Shown one piece after another: positions 49,649 through 63,130 of a stretch of DNA of 64,000 nt. Position numbers and translations under genes: made by a program. Numbering within the stretch: position 1 is the stretch's first letter; each line of letters begins with the position of its first letter. The DNA lies in NCBI GenBank assembly GCA_017430925.1, contig JAFRMA010000053.1, positions 51,338-115,337 of the forward strand, in the 5' to 3' direction. Below the pieces are notes generated by a model. The model was not told where the DNA came from. It did no database searches and was given only the letters and a program-made list of their open reading frames with translations. Origin of the DNA: Solobacterium sp. (lineage in GTDB: Bacteria; Bacillota_I; Bacilli_A; Erysipelotrichales; Erysipelotrichaceae).

Positions 49649-51019
49649 ATGCCGGTTAGATCTTTACCGTCTGCTCTGGAAGCAGAAGCCAGCCTGCTTG
49701 GCACAATGATGTTTTTTCCGGGGTCTGCCAGAATTGCCATGGAAGAGGGGATTACGGCAGATGATTTTGTTGCGCCCGCAAACCGGATTATCTTCCTGGC
49801 TATTGAATCCTTGTACAGAGAAGGGGAAAAGATCGATATTACTACGACAGCTACACGTCTTCAGGATAACGGTACACTGGATATGTCCGGAGGAATCGCT
49901 TATCTGACAACATTGACAGATTCGGCAGTAAGCAGTGTCAACACAAAGACGTATGTCAATATGATCAAGGATAAGACGATCTTGCGCAATCTGATCGAAG
50001 TTGCCGGTAAGATCATCGAAGATAGTTCTGCCGGACAGCCGGATGTGAATGAATATCTGGACAGTGTAGAGAAGTCGATCCTGAATATTTCACATAACCG
50101 CAGAACCGATGAGTTCAAGGCACCGACAGAAGTACTGAACCAGATCGTAGACAATATCCACAAGATGGAAGAAAACAAGTCGGATATTACGGGACTGGCT
50201 ACCGGGTATACACGTTTTGACCATATTACTCATGGCTTGCAGAGAGGGGATCTGATCATCCTGGCTGCCCGTCCTTCCATGGGTAAGACAGCTGTAGCGC
50301 TGAATATGGCTCTGCGTGTAGCTGAAAGAAACAGAGATAAAGCGGTAGCGATCTTCTCTCTGGAAATGGGTGCGGATCAGCTGATGATGCGTCTTCTGGC
50401 AATGAAGAGCCGGGTTGAATCCGACAGCCTTCGTACCGGAAGATTAAGCAACGCGGACTGGAACGCAGTTAATGAAGCAGTATCCGATCTGAAAGCACTG
50501 AAGATCTATATCGATGATACTTCACAGATCCGGATGCCGGAGATCTTCAGCAAGTGCCGCCGTTTACAGAATGAACAAGGACTGGGGATGATCGTTCTGG
50601 ACTATATCCAGCTGGTTTCTGCCACCACCAACAGAGAAGGAAACAGACAACAGGAAGTATCCGAGATCTCCCGTAATCTTAAGGCATTAGCGCGTGAATT
50701 CAACGTGCCGGTGATTGCCTTGTCACAGCTCAGCCGTAACGTGGAAGCCAGAGAAAACAAGCATCCGATCTTAAGTGACCTGCGTGAATCCGGTGCAATC
50801 GAACAGGATGCGGATATCGTTCTGATGTTATACCGCGGCGCATATTATAACGAAGCAGAAAGAAAACAGGCAGATGAAACCGGCAGTGAGATTATTGAAA
50901 TCAATATAGCCAAACATCGTAATGGTCAGACAGGAACTTTCTCTCTTGCCTTTGAGGCCAAGACCAACGTATGCCTGAATATCTCTTCGAACAGTTACCG
51001 ACAGGAGCCTGCGCAATGA
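49649..51019 (+). CDS. dnaB: Replicative DNA helicase DnaB
   Basis: This 456-residue hexameric helicase has an N-terminal primase-binding domain (SLPSALEAEASLLGTMM) and a RecA-like core with Walker A ARPSMGKTA, Walker B IVLDYIQL, and the C-terminal arginine-finger region (SDLRESGAIEQDADIV). In Bacillus the orthologue is called DnaC. The ATG is 5 bases after rplI. Its stop overlaps the start of the next gene as ATGA. Confidence 0.97.
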   Translation: MPVRSLPSALEAEASLLGTMMFFPGSARIAMEEGITADDFVAPANRIIFLAIESLYREGEKIDITTTATRLQDNGTLDMSGGIAYLTTLTDSAVSSVNTKTYVNMIKDKTILRNLIEVAGKIIEDSSAGQPDVNEYLDSVEKSILNISHNRRTDEFKAPTEVLNQIVDNIHKMEENKSDITGLATGYTRFDHITHGLQRGDLIILAARPSMGKTAVALNMALRVAERNRDKAVAIFSLEMGADQLMMRLLAMKSRVESDSLRTGRLSNADWNAVNEAVSDLKALKIYIDDTSQIRMPEIFSKCRRLQNEQGLGMIVLDYIQLVSATTNREGNRQQEVSEISRNLKALAREFNVPVIALSQLSRNVEARENKHPILSDLRESGAIEQDADIVLMLYRGAYYNEAERKQADETGSEIIEINIAKHRNGQTGTFSLAFEAKTNVCLNISSNSYRQEPAQ

Positions 51020-52539
51020 AGAAATTCCTGACGATTCTTTTCAGTCTGATTGCGGCAGTAGGGATCGTTATGTTTAGTCAGAAATATTTCGGAAAGATCA
51101 GTGAACAGGATATTTCCGGTATTTTTGTGCGTGAAAAGACCATTCTTCCGCAGAAGGTGGAAAGGGTTACCACACAGGCAGGAAGTATCCACAAGGTATA
51201 CCATAACGGCCAGCTGGTCGGAATCATCAGTGATGAAGGGAAACTCGGCCGTTTCCTGAAACAGAAGTATAAAGAAGAATACGCGGATCAGTACCCGGAT
51301 TCTCATCTGATTTTGGATACAGATATGTATATCACCCATGAACAGAGTTATTTTGTCTATGAGAATATCGATGACAGTATCCTGAAGTATGTGGAAGCGT
51401 ATGGCTTGTACGCGATTCATACAACAGCCGTGGAATTTGCGGAAAACAATCATATCTATGCCCAGATCTATGTCGCAGAAGAGAGTCTCTATCAAGAAGC
51501 TCTGGAGCGGTATCTTTCCTATTTTGTGGATCCTACGGAACTGGCTTTGTTGAATCAGGGACAGGATGTTCCTGCGTTAAAGACTTATGGAAGCCGTACT
51601 GTAGGTCTATCTATCTTACAGACGATTACCGTAAAGGAAGCCTATGCCAAACCTTCGGAAATCATGACCACAGTCGAAGAAGTCCTGGAGTATCTGGAAT
51701 ACGGAGAAGAAACAGAAAAGGAATACTACACGGTAGAGAAGTACGATACGGTAGCCGGTGTCGGCTGGAAGAACCATGGTCTTTCCGCAACACAGGTTTT
51801 GAATATCAACAGTGATAAACTTACCAGTGTAGACCAGGTACTGAGTGAGGGAATGGAACTCTGTGTAACTTACTTTAAACCTGTAATTGATGTTGTCGTA
51901 AACAAGGAAAGTATGAAGAAAGAAATCATCTATCCGGAAACGATCTATATGGAAGATGAATCTATACGGGTAGGAGTAGTTGAACAGAAACAGGTCGGAG
52001 TCAACGGTTCCAAGAACTCCTTATATCTGGAAAGATGGATCAACGGTGTACTGATCAGCGGTACATTGCAGTCCAGTGTAGATACACTGCGTCCGGTCAA
52101 TGAAATCATCGCGGTAGGTACACTGGAGATTCCGGGCGTCGGTACCGGCACATTCCGCTGGCCTGTAGATAATCCGTATATTTCCTGCGGATGGGGTTGT
52201 TATTGGGGACATCAGGCAATCGACATTCAGAACGCCTATGATCATTGGGGTAACATCTATGCGGCAGACCGTGGCGTAATCATTGAAAACAGCTATAACT
52301 GGATCAGCGGCAACTATGTCTATATCGATCATAACAACGGATATATCAGTTATTACGGACATATGAACGTACCGAGCCCTCTGCCTGTAGGTACGATCGT
52401 AGACAAGGGAGATATTATCGGTCAGCTGGGAATGACCGGAAGAGCTACCGGACCGCATACCCATTTCTGGATCGGTACAGACTACTACAATAAACTGAAT
52501 CCATGTAACGGATTCCTGGATTGTGAAGTGATCCGATGA
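51016..52539 (+). CDS. M23 peptidase with LysM and G5-like domains
   Basis: This 507-residue secreted protein has an N-terminal anchor or signal (about 1-22), a long unassigned region (25-230), a LysM-like stretch (about 237-285), a G5-like domain (about 285-365) and a C-terminal M23 domain. Zinc ligands appear intact: GHQAID and GPHTHF. It should cut peptidoglycan cross-bridges outside the membrane. It is inserted between dnaB and walJ, where Bacillus carries purA and walRKHI. It starts by ATGA overlap with dnaB, and its stop overlaps walJ in the same way. Confidence 0.88.
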   Translation: MKKFLTILFSLIAAVGIVMFSQKYFGKISEQDISGIFVREKTILPQKVERVTTQAGSIHKVYHNGQLVGIISDEGKLGRFLKQKYKEEYADQYPDSHLILDTDMYITHEQSYFVYENIDDSILKYVEAYGLYAIHTTAVEFAENNHIYAQIYVAEESLYQEALERYLSYFVDPTELALLNQGQDVPALKTYGSRTVGLSILQTITVKEAYAKPSEIMTTVEEVLEYLEYGEETEKEYYTVEKYDTVAGVGWKNHGLSATQVLNINSDKLTSVDQVLSEGMELCVTYFKPVIDVVVNKESMKKEIIYPETIYMEDESIRVGVVEQKQVGVNGSKNSLYLERWINGVLISGTLQSSVDTLRPVNEIIAVGTLEIPGVGTGTFRWPVDNPYISCGWGCYWGHQAIDIQNAYDHWGNIYAADRGVIIENSYNWISGNYVYIDHNNGYISYYGHMNVPSPLPVGTIVDKGDIIGQLGMTGRATGPHTHFWIGTDYYNKLNPCNGFLDCEVIR

Positions 52540-53345
52540 GATTCGCGTTACTGGCAAGCGGCTCCAAGGGCAACAGCTGTATCATCTATGATGAAAACAT
52601 GACCTTGATGATCGACTGCGGCACAACGAAGAACTATCTGAGTAAGGCAATGGCAGAAGTCGGCACAACTGTGGAAGATCTGGACGCAGTACTGATCACC
52701 CATACGCACAGTGATCATATTTCACAGCTCCGGATGGTGAAGGATTGCCGGATCTATTCTCCGGAAAAGCTCATCGTTCCTTCAACACAGGTAATTCCCG
52801 AGATGCCTTTTCAGATCAATCATGTGACGGTTACTCCGCTCGCTCTTTCCCATGATACGGAGATCACGGTGGGCTATGTCCTGCGGAGCTGGAAAGAAAA
52901 ACTGGTATATATTACCGATACCGGATATCTGAAAGACAGTTATCTGTCTCTGCTGAAAGATGCGGATTATATCCTTCTGGAGAGTAATCATGATATAGAA
53001 ATGTTGATGCATACCTCCAGACCACCGTATCTGAAGATGCGTATCGCTTCCGACAGCGGCCATCTCTGCAACGAAAACTGCGCCAACATCCTGGCGAATA
53101 TCGTTTCTGTCAAGACGAAACATATCGTGCTTTCCCATATCAGCCAGGAAGCGAATACACCCCAGAAAGCCCTGGAAGTCAACTGTAACTATCTGAGGGA
53201 ACACTGTCCCGGCAGATTACATCCGCAGCTGGTAGTCACAGCCGCGCAGCAATACGAAATCATTAAAGGAGGAGACTGGCATGAAAAAAGCAATTACGGT
53301 GTTTATCGCCGCTATCCTGGCATGGAACGGATGGCTGACGTATAA
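52536..53345 (+). CDS. walJ: MBL-fold metallohydrolase WalJ/YycJ
   Basis: This 269-residue beta-lactamase-fold nuclease-like protein has FALLASGSKGNS, metal motif THTHSDHIS, LSHDT and the C-terminal HIVLSHISQEANTP. YycJ is the usual last or next-to-last member of the wal operon and acts in DNA or wall maintenance; its exact substrate is debated. Its last 21 codons overlap the next gene by 65 bases, unusually long for this operon, where other joins are 4-base overlaps. walR and walK are not in the window. Confidence 0.93.
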   Translation: MRFALLASGSKGNSCIIYDENMTLMIDCGTTKNYLSKAMAEVGTTVEDLDAVLITHTHSDHISQLRMVKDCRIYSPEKLIVPSTQVIPEMPFQINHVTVTPLALSHDTEITVGYVLRSWKEKLVYITDTGYLKDSYLSLLKDADYILLESNHDIEMLMHTSRPPYLKMRIASDSGHLCNENCANILANIVSVKTKHIVLSHISQEANTPQKALEVNCNYLREHCPGRLHPQLVVTAAQQYEIIKGGDWHEKSNYGVYRRYPGMERMADV

Positions 53346-54366
53346 GCTGTACAATACCGAGCATCCTCATACCCCGAGTACTCCTGAAGAGAATCCCGGA
53401 GATACGATCATATATAACACCGTAAACGGATATACGACGGATATTACCCAGGCAATCGAGAAAGTACAGCCTGCCCTGGTATTGGTTACTGGTGTATCCC
53501 AGGATGAGAGAGAAACCTATGCCAGCGGAGTGATCTACCAGTCCAACGCAACAGAGACATATATCGTAACCAGTGCTTCCGTCACCGATGGTGCAGAGGT
53601 GATCAAAGTCACATTTGATAATTACGTGGAAATGGAAGCGGAAGTTATCGGCGCAGATCCTATGTCGGATATTGTCCTGCTGTCTGTACATCCGGAATTC
53701 TCTGCCGGCGCAATCGAACTGGGAAACGCATCCTTGATCAAACCCGGAGAATATGTATTCTCCCTGACCGGCAGGAATCAGCGCACACAGAGTTCTACGA
53801 CCAGTTTCGGCGTGGTTTCCATGGAAGCGCAGCTGCCCAGAGAATTCGGAGAAGATTCCTCCTGGATCATCAGTACGTATATGACAGATACGGTATTATC
53901 GGAATACAGTAACGGAGCGCCGGTATTGAATCTTGACGGAGAGATGATCGGAATACTGTCCAGACGTCTTTCCAGGATAGAGTCATCCGCGAATCTATCC
54001 TGTGCTGTCAGTGTGCAGGAGATCCGCCTGATCTGTGACAATCTGATCCGTACCGGTTCCGTAGACAGAGGATATCTGGGAATTACCGGAAGAAATATCT
54101 CGGATATGACTGTGTATGAAAAGAATACACTGGGAATCTCCCTGGATCAGAATACCGGTATCTTGTGTACGGGAGTAGAAGAGAATTCTCCGGCAGCAGG
54201 CATGGGTATTACCGAAGGATATATCCTGTTGACCATAGATGAAGAAGAGCTGACCAATCTTGGCAAACTGAAGGAGATCCTGTATCGGCATCTGCCGGAA
54301 GATACCATCGTGATTGGGGTGAATACCGGTGCGGCTGAATTATCTGTCAGTGTGGTGCTGAAATGA
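53281..54366 (+). CDS. HtrA-like membrane-anchored pseudoprotease with PDZ domain
   Basis: This 361-residue protein has an N-terminal anchor (4-20), a trypsin-like domain (about 50-255) and a PDZ domain (about 260-355). Alignment by eye to HtrA puts Ser100 (VTSAS) at the catalytic His, keeps Asp130 (MSDIVLL), and places Asn211 (EYSNGAP) at the catalytic Ser of GNSGG. Both key residues are missing, so it should be non-proteolytic and act as a chaperone or scaffold. GGAGGAG lies ahead of the ATG. It is where htrC lies in Bacillus, between walJ and rlmH. Confidence 0.85.
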   Translation: MKKAITVFIAAILAWNGWLTYKLYNTEHPHTPSTPEENPGDTIIYNTVNGYTTDITQAIEKVQPALVLVTGVSQDERETYASGVIYQSNATETYIVTSASVTDGAEVIKVTFDNYVEMEAEVIGADPMSDIVLLSVHPEFSAGAIELGNASLIKPGEYVFSLTGRNQRTQSSTTSFGVVSMEAQLPREFGEDSSWIISTYMTDTVLSEYSNGAPVLNLDGEMIGILSRRLSRIESSANLSCAVSVQEIRLICDNLIRTGSVDRGYLGITGRNISDMTVYEKNTLGISLDQNTGILCTGVEENSPAAGMGITEGYILLTIDEEELTNLGKLKEILYRHLPEDTIVIGVNTGAAELSVSVVLK

Positions 54367-54839
54367 TACGTATCGTTGCCTGTGGTTCCGTCCGGGAGAA
54401 ATGGCTGGCAGATGGAATCAAAGAATACCTGAAGCGCCTCAGTGCCTACGATAAGATTGAAATCACGGAAGTCAGGGATGAAAAAGCTCCTGCCTCAAAC
54501 AGTCCTGCCGAGAATCTGCAGGTGATCAACAAAGAAGGGGAGAAGATCCTGAACCGGATCACCCGCCAGGAATATGTGATCCTGCTGGACCTGGGCGGTA
54601 AAGAGATGGATTCCGTACAATTCTCAGATACATTAGATCATTTATATGCGCAGGGACAGACAAAACTCACATTTGTGATCGGTGGTTCGCTTGGTGTAAG
54701 TGATGAACTAAGAAAGCGTGCAGATATGCGCTGGCAGGTCTCGGAAATGACATTTCCGCACCAGTTATGCAGATTGATCGTTCTGGAACAGATCTACAGG
54801 GCATTTAAGATCATTCATCATGAACCCTATCATAAATGA
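54363..54839 (+). CDS. rlmH: 23S rRNA pseudouridine-1915 N3-methyltransferase
   Basis: This 158-residue SPOUT methyltransferase has the family's pattern: IRIVACGSVREKWL, YVILLDLGGKEMDS, FVIGGSLGVSDELR and the C-terminal MTFPHQLCRLIVLEQIYRAFKI. It modifies helix 69 of 23S rRNA. The ATG overlaps the preceding stop (ATGA). It is the last gene of the operon; no clear terminator follows before the HPr gene. Confidence 0.96.
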   Translation: MIRIVACGSVREKWLADGIKEYLKRLSAYDKIEITEVRDEKAPASNSPAENLQVINKEGEKILNRITRQEYVILLDLGGKEMDSVQFSDTLDHLYAQGQTKLTFVIGGSLGVSDELRKRADMRWQVSEMTFPHQLCRLIVLEQIYRAFKIIHHEPYHK

Positions 54840-57007: not shown

Positions 57008-57181
57008 GTAAATACGGCACACGAGATAGTAAGGAAAAGATACACTGTGTGCAGGATATACAATACATCTGTTTTCAGATTCGGAACTGACTGTTTCCTG
57101 TCATGATACGGGGTCATGTCTGTTTTGTGTTTGATTATTCAAATCTATAATTGATGACACACTGTGTCGAAGGAGAAACGT
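57008..57181 (+). other. Long 5' leader of the LRR surface protein gene
   Basis: The leader contains GCACAC near 57019 able to pair with GTGTGC near 57048, a CATGA/GTCATG repeat at about 57102-57118, and an odd palindrome GACACA-C-TGTGTC at about 57154-57167, next to the GAAGGAG ribosome site. I recognise no known riboswitch class. The repeats may regulate translation or mRNA stability. Confidence 0.35.
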
Positions 57182-60100
57182 ATGCACAAAAAGATCTTGA
57201 TCCATATTCTTTCACTGTTGCTTACTATGTCTCTGCCCATGTCAGGGATGATATCTGTCCATGCGGAAGAGCCGGAGAATGAGGAGACACCATCAGAAGT
57301 AGTGGAACTGACGGAAGAGGAACAACCAGAAGAGACTGCTCCGGAGATTGAAGAAGAGATTCCTGAAGAACAGAACGAACAAATCGATCTGTATCAGCCG
57401 GAATCTGAAGAGACGATCACCGAAGAAGAACCCGGGGAGGAAGAACTCGTTCCTGAAGAAGAGGAAGAAGAGACTGTCATCGATGTGACAGATCCGGAAG
57501 AATCAGAACCGGAAGAAGAAGCACCGGAAGAAGAACCCGGGGAGCCGGAAGAGGAACCGGAAGAACCTGCGGAAGTTTTCTCTGATGATGAGCCTGTGTT
57601 CTACGTGGCAGGGACAGTCGTGCCATATGAAGGAACCGGTGTTCTGGAAATCGAGAGTGAGTACATCACTTCCGGTACGGTAACATACGATTATGATACG
57701 AATACTCTGACGCTGGACAATGCGGTGATCGTCAACGATCCTACGGAAACAGTCGCTGACACACCAAACACAAGGTCCATCTATAAATCCGGAACAGAAG
57801 ATCTGACAATCAAACTGATCGGGGAAAACTCCATTACTGTTACGTCAGACGAATATTATGTTTACTATATCCGCGGTATTCAGGTCAACGGTCTGCTTAC
57901 CATCACCAGTGATGACGGTACAGGTTCGCTGGATATGAATGTTCAGAATACCGGCCAAAACGGGTATCCGGAAGCTATTGCGGTCAAAGCTCCCAAAGTA
58001 TTCATCGAAAACTGCACACTTAACGTGACAGGAACGTATTATGCTTTCTACATCTCGAAGGAACTTCATTTCGGTGCCGGAACGAACGTTACCGCAGTTG
58101 CTACAAAGTACTATGCAATCAATTACTCCAGTGATGGGGCAAAAGTAACCCATTCACCGCTTGAATGCGATATGTACGGATATACGAACGTCGATGATGA
58201 AGAGGGTAATTATTTATACAAACCGGAATATGTCTATGACTATTATTCGGGGAATACGTTTGCGAACTATCCTAAGGTCACGGTCAAGGACCGTAAACCT
58301 GCAGGGAATATCGTACAGGAAGGATTCTGCGGAGCAGAAGGTGATAATGTTACATATACCTTGACGGATGAAGGCCTGCTTACGATCTCAGGAACCGGAG
58401 CGATGGCAGATTTCAATACGTTTGATTACAATACATCGACAAATCCTCCGTGGTATAGCGAACAGATCATCCTGGTAACTTCTGTCGTCGTCGAAGAAGG
58501 TGTTACGCATATCGGTGATCACGCGTTCATTAACTGTAAAATGATGACTGATGTGACCCTTTCAGACACTGTGGAATCTATAGGGAACTATGCGTTCTGC
58601 CACTGTCATAATCTCCCGGCAATCGTCCTCCCTTCGGCTTTAAAAACGATTGGACAATATGCTTTTGAATGCTGTTACGGCTTGGAAGAAATCGTCATTC
58701 CGGAAGGCACGGAGACGATCGAACATGGTGGTTTCGACGACTGTGAGAATCTCATACAGATCACGCTTCCCAGTACACTGACATACCTTGGTGACTATGC
58801 GCTTGCGGAGTGCAAAAAACTGCAGTCGATAGAACTCTCGGCAAATCTTACCTATCTCGGAAGCGGTGTGTTCTATGAGTGTGTATCACTTACCGGGCCG
58901 GTAACGATTCCCGCCGGAATCACAGAACTGAAGGAGTCTGCATTCCATTACTGTACGAACCTTGAAAGTGTAATCCTTCCGGAAGGACTGTTATCGATCG
59001 GATATGAAACATTCGAAAGATGCGAGAAACTCACACAGCTTGAACTGCCGTCCACACTCACCTACATCGGAGAAGAAGCGTTCGAAGGTTCAGGACTCAC
59101 TTCCATCAATATTCCGGAAAGTGTTACAACGATCGTTCATGAAGCGTTCCGTAACTGCAGTGATCTGGTAAGCGTCCATCTTCCGGATACTCTGACAGTG
59201 ATCCAGGAGGAAACGTTTGAAGGCTGCAGCAGCCTGAAAACAATAAACTTACCGGAAACACTGACAACAATCAGGTATGAAGCGTTTTCCGGCTGTGCCC
59301 TTGAAGAAGTTGTGATCCCGGACAGCGTAACATCCTGGGACTATATGGCATTTCCCAATAATCCCTCACTTACAAAAGTAACGATCGGTACCGGTGTAAA
59401 GTCGATCCCGTCGTATTCTTTCCAAAACTGTTCTGCTTTGACAGATGTTACGATTCCCAATACGATCCAAACGATCTCGGATCAGGCATTCTCAGGATGT
59501 ACAAGTCTGGAAGAAATCTATATCCCGGACAGTATTTTATACATATACATCGGCACATTCAGCGGATGTACAAGTTTGAAGAATGTCCGGCTGTCACAGA
59601 ATATCCAGTATATCAGTGACTCTGTGTTCTATAACTGTTCCGAACTGGAAGAAATCGAATTGCCTTCAGACCTTCAGAGTATCGGAAGCTATACATTCGC
59701 AGGTTGTTCGAAACTGACTTCACTTACATTTCCTGAAGGGATGACCTATTTCGGCGAAGGGGCGTTCCAGAATTGTTCGGCTCTTACGGAAATAAACTTC
59801 CCTGAAACGATGGAGCAGAATTCCGTTGGTGCTTATACGTTTGATGGCTGTTCCTCCCTGACCGAGATCACGATTCCGGATACCGTAAAGGGATTCGGTG
59901 ATTATGCGTTCCATAACTGTACAAGCCTGGAAAAGATCAATTTCAACGGTGTGCTGGAAAATGTCTCCTACAACAATTATGCGGTAGGTTACTACACATT
60001 TGCCAATTGTACATCACTGACAGAACTTTCTCTGACATTCCGGTATAAAAATGGTATGGTCACCTCCAGTTCGTTCAGCAGTTTCCCTGCAGGATTTGTG

Positions 60101-63100
60101 CAGGTGTACGGTATCCCCGGGGGAAGTCTGGAAAGTTACGCGTCATCCTATAACTATACCTTCCATCCGGTCGGATTCACCGTGCAGTATTTCGCCAACG
60201 GTGCCGAAGGAGAGATGGAAGATCAGATCATTGACTACACAGACTTTACGGATGAGTCAGAACCGTATTACTTCACTCCCAATGTATTCACCAACGGTGA
60301 TCTGACCTTTATCGGCTGGAATACAAAAGCTGACGGAAGCGGAACTAACTATGAAGACGGTCAGGAAGTGCCGATCGACATACCGTCCTCCGGTATCATG
60401 ACGCTGTATGCGCAGTGGGCGGAAGGTTATGATCTCTGGATCAAGGGTAAATTGATTCACAGTAAGAATAAAGATGATATTTATCTGGCTTTGAACGGAT
60501 ACAGCAATCCGTCTTACCCGGTAACCTATGATCCTGATACGAACACATTGACACTAAATCCCGGATTTAATGTGACTAATTATAATTCCATAAAGGAAGG
60601 CGCAGGTCCGGAATACTACAGCGGATTGTACTATGGAGGTGACGGAGAGCTTACTATCGTAGTAAAAAGGACGGCATCTTTCAACGGTTCCAGCGGTCAG
60701 GGCGTCCCTGATATCTGCAACCTGTACAGTGCAGGATCTCTCAGAATCATCTTTAATCAGGACGAGAACTACTACAATACACCGAAGCTTGATGTTGGCA
60801 GTAACTCGCGTTATTACGACGGCAATACAGACATGACCGGTATGTATGTAGGCGGGAATCTCACAATCAGCGGAAGCGGTAACTTCTACGTACGAAGCGA
60901 TTACGCCGGAGAGGGACATAGTTACGCACTCCGGATGGCCGGAGGTATCCTGAGATTGCAGGATCAGACATCTGTAGATCTTATGCCGGGGTATGGCGAA
61001 GCCGGAGCCCATGGTCTCTATCTGGACGGGAATACGACACTCCGTGCTTTGAACTGGGAAAGCCAGATGAGAATCAACGGAAACAATAGTCCTGCAATTG
61101 CCGGAGCTACTGGCATCACTTTGAGTCAGCGTAGTTCAGAACTTAGTTTATTCGGATGTTCTTCAGCGACTTTCCAAAATCCAAAACTCCTGGAAGAGTC
61201 CTCTTATCTCGTCAGTAATCTTGCGCAATACCCCGGTATCCGCGTTGATCGCGTCAATCACGTAATGACGGTATCCCTGGCTTATCCAGACAGGCACTAC
61301 GTTTATACAGGCAGTGCGATCAAGCCTGAAATCATCGTGTCCTGCGCCGGTAATACCTTATACGAAGGCAGAGATTATACAGTCAAATACAAGAACAACA
61401 CCAAAGCCTTTGTGTTACCGGAAGGTATCGAAAAAGATCAGGAAGGTTTCATGGAACTGACTGCCAAGAAGCGTAAGACAGCTCCGCAGATCACGGTGAC
61501 AGGGAAAGGCAATTTCAAAGGCAGTACTACACTGTACTTTGAGATTGGGCAAAAGAGTGTTGCGCCGGGTGATACAGCAGACGGAACAGTGCCTGTAAAG
61601 GCAGCGGATCTGACGATTGTTTCCGGAACCAAAGCATCTCCGATTCTGTACTACGGTACAAACAAGCTGACGACGAAAGACTTTACGACCAGTCCTGCAG
61701 CATCTGTGAAGTACAAGGAAAGCACGGTGATGACCATCACCGGCAAGGGTAATTACACTGGTACTGTTGAAATCCCGGTAACAGTTGTCCCGACCAAAGC
61801 GGACCTGAAGAACATCGCGGTTGATTTCGGACCGAAGTCCATCGTCTACGATGGTACAGACCGGAAAGAAGAGATCCTTGCGGGAATCACGGTTTATGAC
61901 GCGATGGACAAGGTTGAAAAGACCGATATCGGAAAGGAACACTACAGTCTGACTATGTCTGGAAACACGAAAGACGCCGGCACGGTTAAAGTCACCGTTA
62001 CGGGTATCAACGGCTATTCCGGAACCAAGACAGCCAGTATCAAGATCGTACCGGACACAAATATCGACATCAAGGTATACAACTATTATGAAGAGGGTGC
62101 GACCTACAGCGGATATGCCATTAACGGTTTCCTTTCCGTGTATGCGGATGTGGATGGTGAAGGAGAAGGTGACGACAAGTATGAGACCTGCCTGGTCGAA
62201 GGAAAAGACTACAAGGTCACATACAAGAACAATACCAATGTCACTACCGCAAAGAAGAAAGCTTCCTATACGATATCCTTTATCGGCAGCTATAAGGGTA
62301 AGAAAGCCATTACCGGTAAATTCGATATCTTCCCGAAGAAGATCCAGAACGCTAGTATTCGAATCGTTCCTGAAAAAGTATATACAAAACCAGGTGCTTA
62401 TGCGTCTGCGCCGTTTGTCCAGTATAATGGCTTTACTCTGAAAGCAGGGAAAGACTATACGTTATCGTATTACCGGAAGGTAACTTACAAAAACGGTGTC
62501 TATGAGTGTACCGGTCCGATCACGTCCAAGAAAGGACAGATGATCACGGATGCGGATTTCATAGATGAAAACGGAAATGAATTAAGTCAGATCTATGTAT
62601 ACGTCGTGATGCGCGGTAAAGGCAACTTCGCTTCCAGTGATCCCAACGATATCAAGTATCAATCATACAGGATCAGAAAGCAGCAGCCTTCCGAAACAGT
62701 CAAGTATCTGGATATGTCCAAAGCTACCGTTACCATTACCAAGAAGAACGCGAAAGGCAAGACCGTCAAGGTATCCTCGTTCCCGTATACCGGAAATACC
62801 ATTACCTTTGATCCGAACGGGTCAGGTTCTCCGAATTATGCGGCGGACATCAAGATTACTTATAAGTACGATAAAAAAACAACTCTGACTCTTGAATACA
62901 ACAGGGACTTCTACCTCAATTACTATGACAATGTCAATAAAGGTACTGCCACAGTTGTGATCCGGGGAAATAACTCTGCCCGGACGTTCTATGATCAGAA
63001 TGGCCAGCCGGTCAAGGATATGAAAGGTAACGAGATCGGATATATCGGCTTCACCGGTGCCAAGTCAACGAATTATAAGATTATTTCCGAGAAGATCGCT

Positions 63101-63130
63101 AATCTTCTGAAAAAGATCTTCGGCAACTAA
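57182..63130 (+). CDS. Giant secreted BspA-type leucine-rich-repeat surface protein
   Basis: The 1982-residue protein has a signal peptide (1-28), a Glu/Pro-rich acidic segment (about 30-135), a beta domain (about 140-390), about 22 BspA-type LRR units (about 430-1000), a Listeria-Bacteroides (Flg_new) domain ending TLYAQW (about 1000-1080), a second copy of the beta domain beginning LWIKGKLI (about 1085-1360), and several Ig-like repeats with YTG/KYKNNT motifs (about 1360-1982). No LPXTG, transmembrane tail or SLH domain is seen at the end, so attachment is unexplained. Start ATG 57182 follows GAAGGAG; an earlier GTG at 57164 overlaps that site. Likely an adhesin or host-interaction protein. 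Confidence 0.9.
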   Translation: MHKKILIHILSLLLTMSLPMSGMISVHAEEPENEETPSEVVELTEEEQPEETAPEIEEEIPEEQNEQIDLYQPESEETITEEEPGEEELVPEEEEEETVIDVTDPEESEPEEEAPEEEPGEPEEEPEEPAEVFSDDEPVFYVAGTVVPYEGTGVLEIESEYITSGTVTYDYDTNTLTLDNAVIVNDPTETVADTPNTRSIYKSGTEDLTIKLIGENSITVTSDEYYVYYIRGIQVNGLLTITSDDGTGSLDMNVQNTGQNGYPEAIAVKAPKVFIENCTLNVTGTYYAFYISKELHFGAGTNVTAVATKYYAINYSSDGAKVTHSPLECDMYGYTNVDDEEGNYLYKPEYVYDYYSGNTFANYPKVTVKDRKPAGNIVQEGFCGAEGDNVTYTLTDEGLLTISGTGAMADFNTFDYNTSTNPPWYSEQIILVTSVVVEEGVTHIGDHAFINCKMMTDVTLSDTVESIGNYAFCHCHNLPAIVLPSALKTIGQYAFECCYGLEEIVIPEGTETIEHGGFDDCENLIQITLPSTLTYLGDYALAECKKLQSIELSANLTYLGSGVFYECVSLTGPVTIPAGITELKESAFHYCTNLESVILPEGLLSIGYETFERCEKLTQLELPSTLTYIGEEAFEGSGLTSINIPESVTTIVHEAFRNCSDLVSVHLPDTLTVIQEETFEGCSSLKTINLPETLTTIRYEAFSGCALEEVVIPDSVTSWDYMAFPNNPSLTKVTIGTGVKSIPSYSFQNCSALTDVTIPNTIQTISDQAFSGCTSLEEIYIPDSILYIYIGTFSGCTSLKNVRLSQNIQYISDSVFYNCSELEEIELPSDLQSIGSYTFAGCSKLTSLTFPEGMTYFGEGAFQNCSALTEINFPETMEQNSVGAYTFDGCSSLTEITIPDTVKGFGDYAFHNCTSLEKINFNGVLENVSYNNYAVGYYTFANCTSLTELSLTFRYKNGMVTSSSFSSFPAGFVQVYGIPGGSLESYASSYNYTFHPVGFTVQYFANGAEGEMEDQIIDYTDFTDESEPYYFTPNVFTNGDLTFIGWNTKADGSGTNYEDGQEVPIDIPSSGIMTLYAQWAEGYDLWIKGKLIHSKNKDDIYLALNGYSNPSYPVTYDPDTNTLTLNPGFNVTNYNSIKEGAGPEYYSGLYYGGDGELTIVVKRTASFNGSSGQGVPDICNLYSAGSLRIIFNQDENYYNTPKLDVGSNSRYYDGNTDMTGMYVGGNLTISGSGNFYVRSDYAGEGHSYALRMAGGILRLQDQTSVDLMPGYGEAGAHGLYLDGNTTLRALNWESQMRINGNNSPAIAGATGITLSQRSSELSLFGCSSATFQNPKLLEESSYLVSNLAQYPGIRVDRVNHVMTVSLAYPDRHYVYTGSAIKPEIIVSCAGNTLYEGRDYTVKYKNNTKAFVLPEGIEKDQEGFMELTAKKRKTAPQITVTGKGNFKGSTTLYFEIGQKSVAPGDTADGTVPVKAADLTIVSGTKASPILYYGTNKLTTKDFTTSPAASVKYKESTVMTITGKGNYTGTVEIPVTVVPTKADLKNIAVDFGPKSIVYDGTDRKEEILAGITVYDAMDKVEKTDIGKEHYSLTMSGNTKDAGTVKVTVTGINGYSGTKTASIKIVPDTNIDIKVYNYYEEGATYSGYAINGFLSVYADVDGEGEGDDKYETCLVEGKDYKVTYKNNTNVTTAKKKASYTISFIGSYKGKKAITGKFDIFPKKIQNASIRIVPEKVYTKPGAYASAPFVQYNGFTLKAGKDYTLSYYRKVTYKNGVYECTGPITSKKGQMITDADFIDENGNELSQIYVYVVMRGKGNFASSDPNDIKYQSYRIRKQQPSETVKYLDMSKATVTITKKNAKGKTVKVSSFPYTGNTITFDPNGSGSPNYAADIKITYKYDKKTTLTLEYNRDFYLNYYDNVNKGTATVVIRGNNSARTFYDQNGQPVKDMKGNEIGYIGFTGAKSTNYKIISEKIANLLKKIFGN
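58470..60170 (+). repeat. Array of about 22 BspA-type LRR units
   Basis: Each unit is about 23 codons, with pattern L-x-x-(I/V)-x-(I/L)-P-x-(T/S)-(V/L)-x-x-I-(G)-x-x-A-F-x-x-C. The units vary at DNA level, so the array is old and not a fresh tandem duplication. Two units (one around 59325-59360) have lost the FxxC ending, giving possible breaks in the solenoid. Confidence 0.8.

Follow-up and report, generated by a model that had tools for sequence, protein, structure and literature searches.

An HtrC homologue without catalytic His and Ser between walJ and rlmH of Solobacterium

We analyzed a stretch of 64,000 nucleotides from Solobacterium sp., a genus placed in the Erysipelotrichaceae (NCBI taxonomy); this whole stretch is referred to as the window. 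An open reading frame (ORF) on its plus strand, at 53281-54366, encodes an HtrA-family protein of 361 amino acids without the catalytic His and Ser, as judged from the ORF and its translation, Pfam matches, and a predicted model with its fold match. The gene occupies the place of htrC, between walJ and rlmH, and we refer to its product as pseudo-HtrC. Our preferred reading, to which we give about an even chance, is that of a dead HtrC homologue kept by purifying selection, likely a PDZ scaffold or holdase that is anchored in the membrane, does not cut, and is predicted to form homotrimers. Fold, PDZ domain, locus, and selection have been kept without the cutting residues, and therefore the protein likely works by binding and not by cutting.

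Domains and catalytic positions of pseudo-HtrC

Two Pfam families matched the protein above their cut-offs, Trypsin_2 (PF13365; 67 bits, residues 81-225) and PDZ_2 (PF13180; 31.8 bits, residues 284-358). Together with the predicted model, they delimit a helix (residues 51-65) and trypsin-like domain spanning residues 51-258 (53431-54054, plus strand; also based on VIA-align) and a PDZ domain spanning residues 262-359 (54064-54357, plus strand). Trypsin and PDZ were the only domains found by the domain search, and the nearest solved folds are those of DegQ and DegS. Hence, the trypsin-like domain followed by a C-terminal PDZ domain that marks the HtrA/S1C family is present, and the His-Asp-Ser triad of this family is not. 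Alignments to solved HtrA/DegP chains and to family members place Ser100 (53578-53580) at the position of the catalytic His and Asn211 (53911-53913) at that of the catalytic Ser, whereas the catalytic Asp is kept as Asp130 (53668-53670; all on the plus strand). The motif around Asn211 reads EYSNGAP, compared to GNSGG in HtrA, and Tyr209, which corresponds to position 193 by counting back from the Ser, occupies the position of the oxyanion-site Gly. An N-terminal membrane helix is predicted for residues 2-25 (53284-53355, plus strand) by the model, column counts, and a hydropathy of 1.32, and contains a WNxxLT motif. The initial annotation of this DNA had described an HtrA homologue that lacks the catalytic His and Ser and retains the Asp, the fold, the PDZ domain, and a membrane anchor, and all of these features were recovered, the fold and the anchor as predictions. 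Judging from the residues at these positions, it is very likely that the protein does not cut.

Distribution of the catalytic losses

We examined 70 genomes of the genus (Solobacterium in the records) and read an orthologue beside rlmH in 67 of them; at three of these loci (L017, L027, and L031), the contig breaks off too early for walJ to be read. None of the 64 rows readable at the catalytic His column carries a His (S, D, E, R, Q, K, N, A, or T is found instead), and a full triad is likewise seen in 0/64. Ser is present at its column in 5/67 rows, the others holding I, Y, A, T, E, V, and further letters, and Asp in 28/66. The oxyanion-site Gly was lost in 61/67 rows and kept in 6/67. The nearest relative, 89% identical, also reads EYSNGAP; other species carry other letters. 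The specific Ser and Asn substitutions of the window protein, for which a survey had been suggested, are thus not conserved among the orthologues.

An active protease whose catalytic apparatus is unusual or has been relocated is extremely improbable. Such an enzyme could draw on the Ser211 retained in the five rows mentioned above and on a fold that is predicted to be intact. We looked for a shifted but complete triad in 65 genus rows and found none: within residues 51-258, no column has a majority of His, Cys, or Lys. Columns with a majority of Ser do exist (e.g., S180), without a conserved His or Lys partner, and a His somewhere in the loop 93-108 occurs in only 4/67 rows, never at the catalytic column. 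The loss of the oxyanion-site Gly and the absence of any full triad in the 64 readable rows also argue against a relocated active site.

A protein database search returned 24 matches at E 1e-20 or better. The first 21 were aligned (P0002-P0022), and the last three, which are longer HtrA-type proteins, were left out. The catalytic His is absent in 19 of the 21. Two sequences were considered as possible triad-bearing members inside the genus clade, and both were rejected: P0017, with a complete triad, clusters (98/95) with the triad-bearing HtrC L145 from a different genus, and P0014 lacks the Ser. P0009, P0013, and P0021 lack both His and Ser and are labeled 'S1C family serine protease', 'serine protease Do', and 'S1-C subfamily serine protease', so that for these three relatives the public labels overstate the activity. 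A collection scan yielded 17 named loci, 13 from Solobacterium sp. and four from uncultured Erysipelotrichaceae, with the ruminant gut named for 8/17.

Next to this genus-wide loss, triad-bearing HtrC proteins occur at the same locus in other genera. Among 48 rlmH loci of the family, read up to about 2.6 kb 5' of rlmH, 25 contain an HtrC-type ORF, with walJ also recognized in 20 of these. All three triad residues are present in 20/25; the Ser is replaced by Thr in L133 and L142, the Asp by Asn in L160, and both His and Ser are missing from L136 and L149. In a second batch of 17 loci, some of them near-identical, 15 carry the triad, including L253, and L256 and L257 are without His and Ser. L149, L253, L256, and L257 belong to one genus (g57), in which L253 keeps His, Asp, and Ser and the other three have lost His and Ser. 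Therefore, loss can be seen within a genus. In genus g33 (L137, L138, L169, and L267), the HtrC-type protein beside rlmH keeps the triad and has GYSGS instead of GNSGG, which is unusual for the active-site loop.

Since triad-bearing HtrC proteins lie between walJ and rlmH in related genera, the simplest explanation is that catalysis was lost in place. In a first tree, the 36 dead orthologues sampled from the genus were all split off together by one branch (100/96) and lay away from the second HtrA described below. Deep forks of the tree are weakly supported, some dead rows are long-branched, and the HtrC proteins of other genera do not form one group. We further tested whether 15 dead rows, comprising L136, L149, L256, and L257 besides 11 from the genus, could form a single clade; this was rejected by the approximately unbiased (AU) test with p 3e-12, subject to the caveat that the long branches (L136 and L256) share the pull of the model. 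On the strength of this rejection, catalysis is taken to have been lost at least twice in the family.

Selection, trimer sites, and a possible role in binding

We estimated ratios of nonsynonymous to synonymous substitution rates (dN/dS) by the Nei-Gojobori method for 14 pairs of closely related genus members, with each cluster contributing one pair; the most distant of these pairs are near saturation. The pooled value for the whole protein was 0.16; by part, it was 0.141 for helix and protease domain, 0.168 for the PDZ domain, 0.15 for the former His loop, and 0.119 for the former Ser loop. A value close to that of the whole protein, 0.175 (four pairs), was obtained for the second HtrA of the genus, which has the triad. 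Between the window protein and its nearest relative the ratio was 0.098, compared to 0.048 for walJ and 0.046 for rlmH. In the WNxxLT motif, W15 is found in 65/65 and N16 in 62/65 readable genus rows. Most codons of the membrane helix lie within the 3' end of walJ; this overlap reduces synonymous change in the first codons, and the conservation of the helix may therefore partly be that of walJ. The initial annotation had proposed selection as a non-enzymatic chaperone, sensor, or PDZ scaffold; the selection and the loss of the triad are borne out by these data, and a function of this kind can be suggested from them.

To define what was lost, we used as triad-bearing reference 32 of 35 HtrC sequences (all except L253, L265, and L273), in which H, D, and S are present in 32/32 by construction. 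Of the 31 columns conserved to at least 90% in this set, 24 are still at least 50% conserved in the genus. The seven that drop below 50% are H100, Q201, S211, G209, D130, E221, and G309. They comprise the three triad residues, the Gly of the oxyanion site, a Gln and a Glu located ten residues before and after Ser211, respectively, and a Gly of the PDZ domain. From these column counts, the losses appear to be concentrated mainly at the triad and its surroundings, with the fold and the PDZ domain mostly kept.

Six letters that are uncommon in the triad-bearing set reach at least 85% in the genus: Y51, D113, Y158, R165, G264, and L330. They hint at a new surface and could be taken to favor a pseudoprotease that binds a ligand or metal in a new pocket, like MamO of magnetotactic bacteria. 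We regard this as improbable, since no column with a majority of His, as a MamO-type di-His site would need, is found in residues 51-258.

The same near-fixed sites, for example, Arg165 in 62/67 rows, speak against the idea of a decaying gene that is held only by its operon position and by translational coupling to walJ and rlmH. There are points in favor of decay. The gene shares short overlaps with each neighbor and has been lost in one genome of the genus (G071), where just 161 nt separate the walJ and rlmH frames. In another (G077), the walJ-rlmH interval contains an 81-residue HtrC remnant (L097, given-strand 2389-2691) keeping the start, the hydrophobic helix, and the WN motif, with about its first 20 codons overlapping walJ. 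These genomes are 97 and 99% complete, respectively; in G011, neither rlmH nor a close HtrC was found. At 23 of the 48 loci of other genera, no HtrC-type ORF was present in the upstream stretch read (only about 400 nt for L166; regions farther away or downstream were not searched). Nevertheless, decay is very improbable in view of the dN/dS of 0.16 over 14 pairs, the lack of internal stops in any genus orthologue among the matches listed, and the Trypsin_2 and PDZ_2 matches in every one of the 57 sequences of alignment A1, which include 51 from the genus.

A second, active-type HtrA had been proposed as something to look for in the genome, and it was found. It comprises 486 amino acids, carries the full triad, and is the sole other Trypsin_2 match of the window's genome (L001, G000:C44). 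Its gene (L001, 871-2331) is located just after that of a rhomboid-family membrane protein (L001, 230-787). Trypsin_2 matches above 100 bits are present in 62/70 genus genomes, as counted from the listing; seven of the other eight are less than 90% complete, and G102 is at 90%. The full triad was found in all 30 second-HtrA loci counted (29 genomes) and in 30 more that were read, from overlapping genomes. The second HtrA has the same domain types as pseudo-HtrC and differs in length, in the triad, in lacking a majority WNxxLT motif, in its trimer-site residues, and in its position in the tree. Pseudo-HtrC as a recent duplicate of this protein was ruled out by the tree, in which the genus clade (100/96) does not derive from the second HtrA.

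For HtrA1, the trimer sites Y169, F171, and F278 are listed together with H220 and D250 in a table of a review (accessible text of PMC8509474). We mapped these sites to positions 49, 51, and 158 of pseudo-HtrC. Position 158 is Tyr in 58/67 genus rows and aromatic in 29/32 triad-bearing HtrC proteins, compared to Thr in 24/30 second HtrAs. At position 51, 61/64 genus rows have Tyr or Phe, and the second HtrA has mainly Thr, Gly, or Ser. The two mostly kept aromatic sites suggest that the trimer may have been kept, and since they differ between the two proteins, homotrimers would be favored over mixed ones.

The difference in these residues also bears on the possibility that pseudo-HtrC is a regulatory partner of the second HtrA, modulating it through binding or co-assembly in the way that MamO acts on MamE. 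MamO promotes MamE-dependent proteolysis without a triad of its own, according to the accessible text of PMC4794232, and the second HtrA is widespread and triad-bearing at all loci read, as described above. Against mixed trimers stands the pair Tyr/Tyr versus mostly Thr and Thr/Gly/Ser at the trimer sites. Moreover, G071 and G077 keep a triad-bearing HtrA without the dead HtrC, and the two lineages are not sisters. We therefore consider a regulatory partnership possible but doubtful.

According to the preferred reading of a non-cutting scaffold or holdase, the membrane helix is predicted to place the trypsin-like and PDZ domains outside the cell, the PDZ domain may have retained the task of binding exported or membrane proteins at their C-termini, and cutting would be left to the second HtrA. 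Several observations weigh against this reading. Triad-bearing HtrC proteins of other genera gave a dN/dS of 0.049 (two pairs, with near-saturated synonymous change), so that constraint on pseudo-HtrC may be weaker. The PDZ residue G309 is kept in only 31/67 genus rows. In other genera, 13 of the 48 loci have walJ immediately 5' of rlmH without HtrC between them, and the losses in G071 and G077 mean that the gene is dispensable there. P0014, nested inside the genus clade, has His and Asp, with Asp replacing the Ser; hence, a His can occur at the catalytic column within the clade. As for the trimer, the HtrA1 sites were mapped by residue offset from His and Asp and not from a solved complex, and position 51 is Phe in only 14/31 triad-bearing HtrC proteins. 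Regarding P0014, its His may be present again, or still.

Comparison with known systems and genomic context

HtrC of Bacillus (YycK, HtrA3) adjoins rlmH and consists of a trypsin-like and one PDZ domain, and YpeB is its reported target, as far as described in the accessible text of a review (PMC12826053). Pseudo-HtrC shares the locus beside rlmH and this domain content with the Bacillus protein and differs from it by the absence of His and Ser and by the lack of a YpeB match: no match above the cut-off was obtained in 272 genomes of the family, with three weaker ones outside the window's genus. Two of these (G224 and G295) are from genera with triad-bearing HtrC, and the genus of the third (G266) was without HtrC at the one locus read (L156). 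A link between the loss of HtrC and that of YpeB was not discriminating, since YpeB is above the cut-off in 0/272 genomes.

DegS, like pseudo-HtrC, has one membrane anchor and one PDZ domain, again going by the accessible part of PMC12826053. Unlike it, DegS and DegQ are proteases with a triad, and their NCBIfam cut-offs were not reached by pseudo-HtrC.

The accessible text of PMC4794232 describes MamO as an HtrA-family pseudoprotease with a degenerate triad and a non-Gly residue at position 193, and reports convergent losses in MamO and MamE copies of magnetotactic bacteria. Pseudo-HtrC resembles MamO in both features, with Tyr209 at position 193. It differs from MamO in phylum and locus, in keeping the PDZ domain, in the absence of a TauE-like transporter domain, and in the absence of a recognizable di-His metal site (other metal sites are possible). 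Moreover, the relative with a triad that is encoded in this genome belongs to a separate, old lineage and is not a recent duplicate. Judged by titles and the beginnings of abstracts, MamO was the sole bacterial HtrA pseudoprotease among the papers listed on this subject, and the literature listings showed no report of the present lineage. HtrA pseudoproteases are thus already known, and the present lineage differs in locus, phylum, architecture, and PDZ retention.

The gene upstream of pseudo-HtrC (52536-53345, plus strand) encodes a protein of the metallo-beta-lactamase fold, which is the family given by the domain search; we take it to be walJ (yycJ-like). It overlaps the pseudo-HtrC gene by 65 nt, and an overlap was found in 61/62 genus rows having walJ, the remaining row having a doubtful start. 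A Shine-Dalgarno-like sequence, AAAGGAGG, was read 8 nt 5' of the pseudo-HtrC ATG (53265-53272, plus strand). The downstream gene rlmH, for a SPOUT methyltransferase (54363-54839, plus strand), overlaps the pseudo-HtrC stop with its start (ATGA). The position between walJ and rlmH claimed initially was confirmed in the window and in the loci of the genus; triad-bearing HtrC proteins are found there in other genera. Concerning the wider Wal neighborhood that had been invoked, walJ is the only part of the Wal system in the window. In the window's genome, YycI gave no match and WalK only matches below the cut-off, a cut-off reached by only one of 14 control genomes. 

A protein with G5 and M23 peptidase domains, assigned by the domain search, is encoded 5' of walJ (50971-52539, plus strand). 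The order M23-walJ-htrC-rlmH is found at all 15 of the 17 named loci whose contigs extend upstream. M23-walJ is also kept at ten loci without HtrC (L091, L129-L131, L135, L151, L155, L161, L163, and L165), and the M23 gene was not found at L123, L124, L128, and L134, which lack HtrC, nor at L147 and L160, which have it. Therefore, no clear link supports the M23 neighbor as a dedicated HtrC client. In a promoter scan, promoter-like sites were no commoner than in shuffles; terminator-like sites numbered 8 versus a mean of 2.7. Downstream of the operon, the window encodes a BspA-type leucine-rich repeat protein of 1988 residues (57164-63130).

Taken together, we tentatively suggest, as a wider claim that we hold less firmly than that for the window protein itself, a repeatedly evolved and genus-wide class of HtrC pseudoproteases that would act as homotrimeric, membrane-tethered PDZ scaffolds, in which cutting would be expendable and binding would be what is kept at the walJ-rlmH locus. 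HtrA is both a protease and a chaperone, and in the active enzymes it is difficult to tell how much of its value comes from binding by itself. At this one locus, catalysis appears to have been lost at least twice with the rest of the protein under selection, and triad-bearing relatives in neighboring genera, or within g57, are available for comparison.
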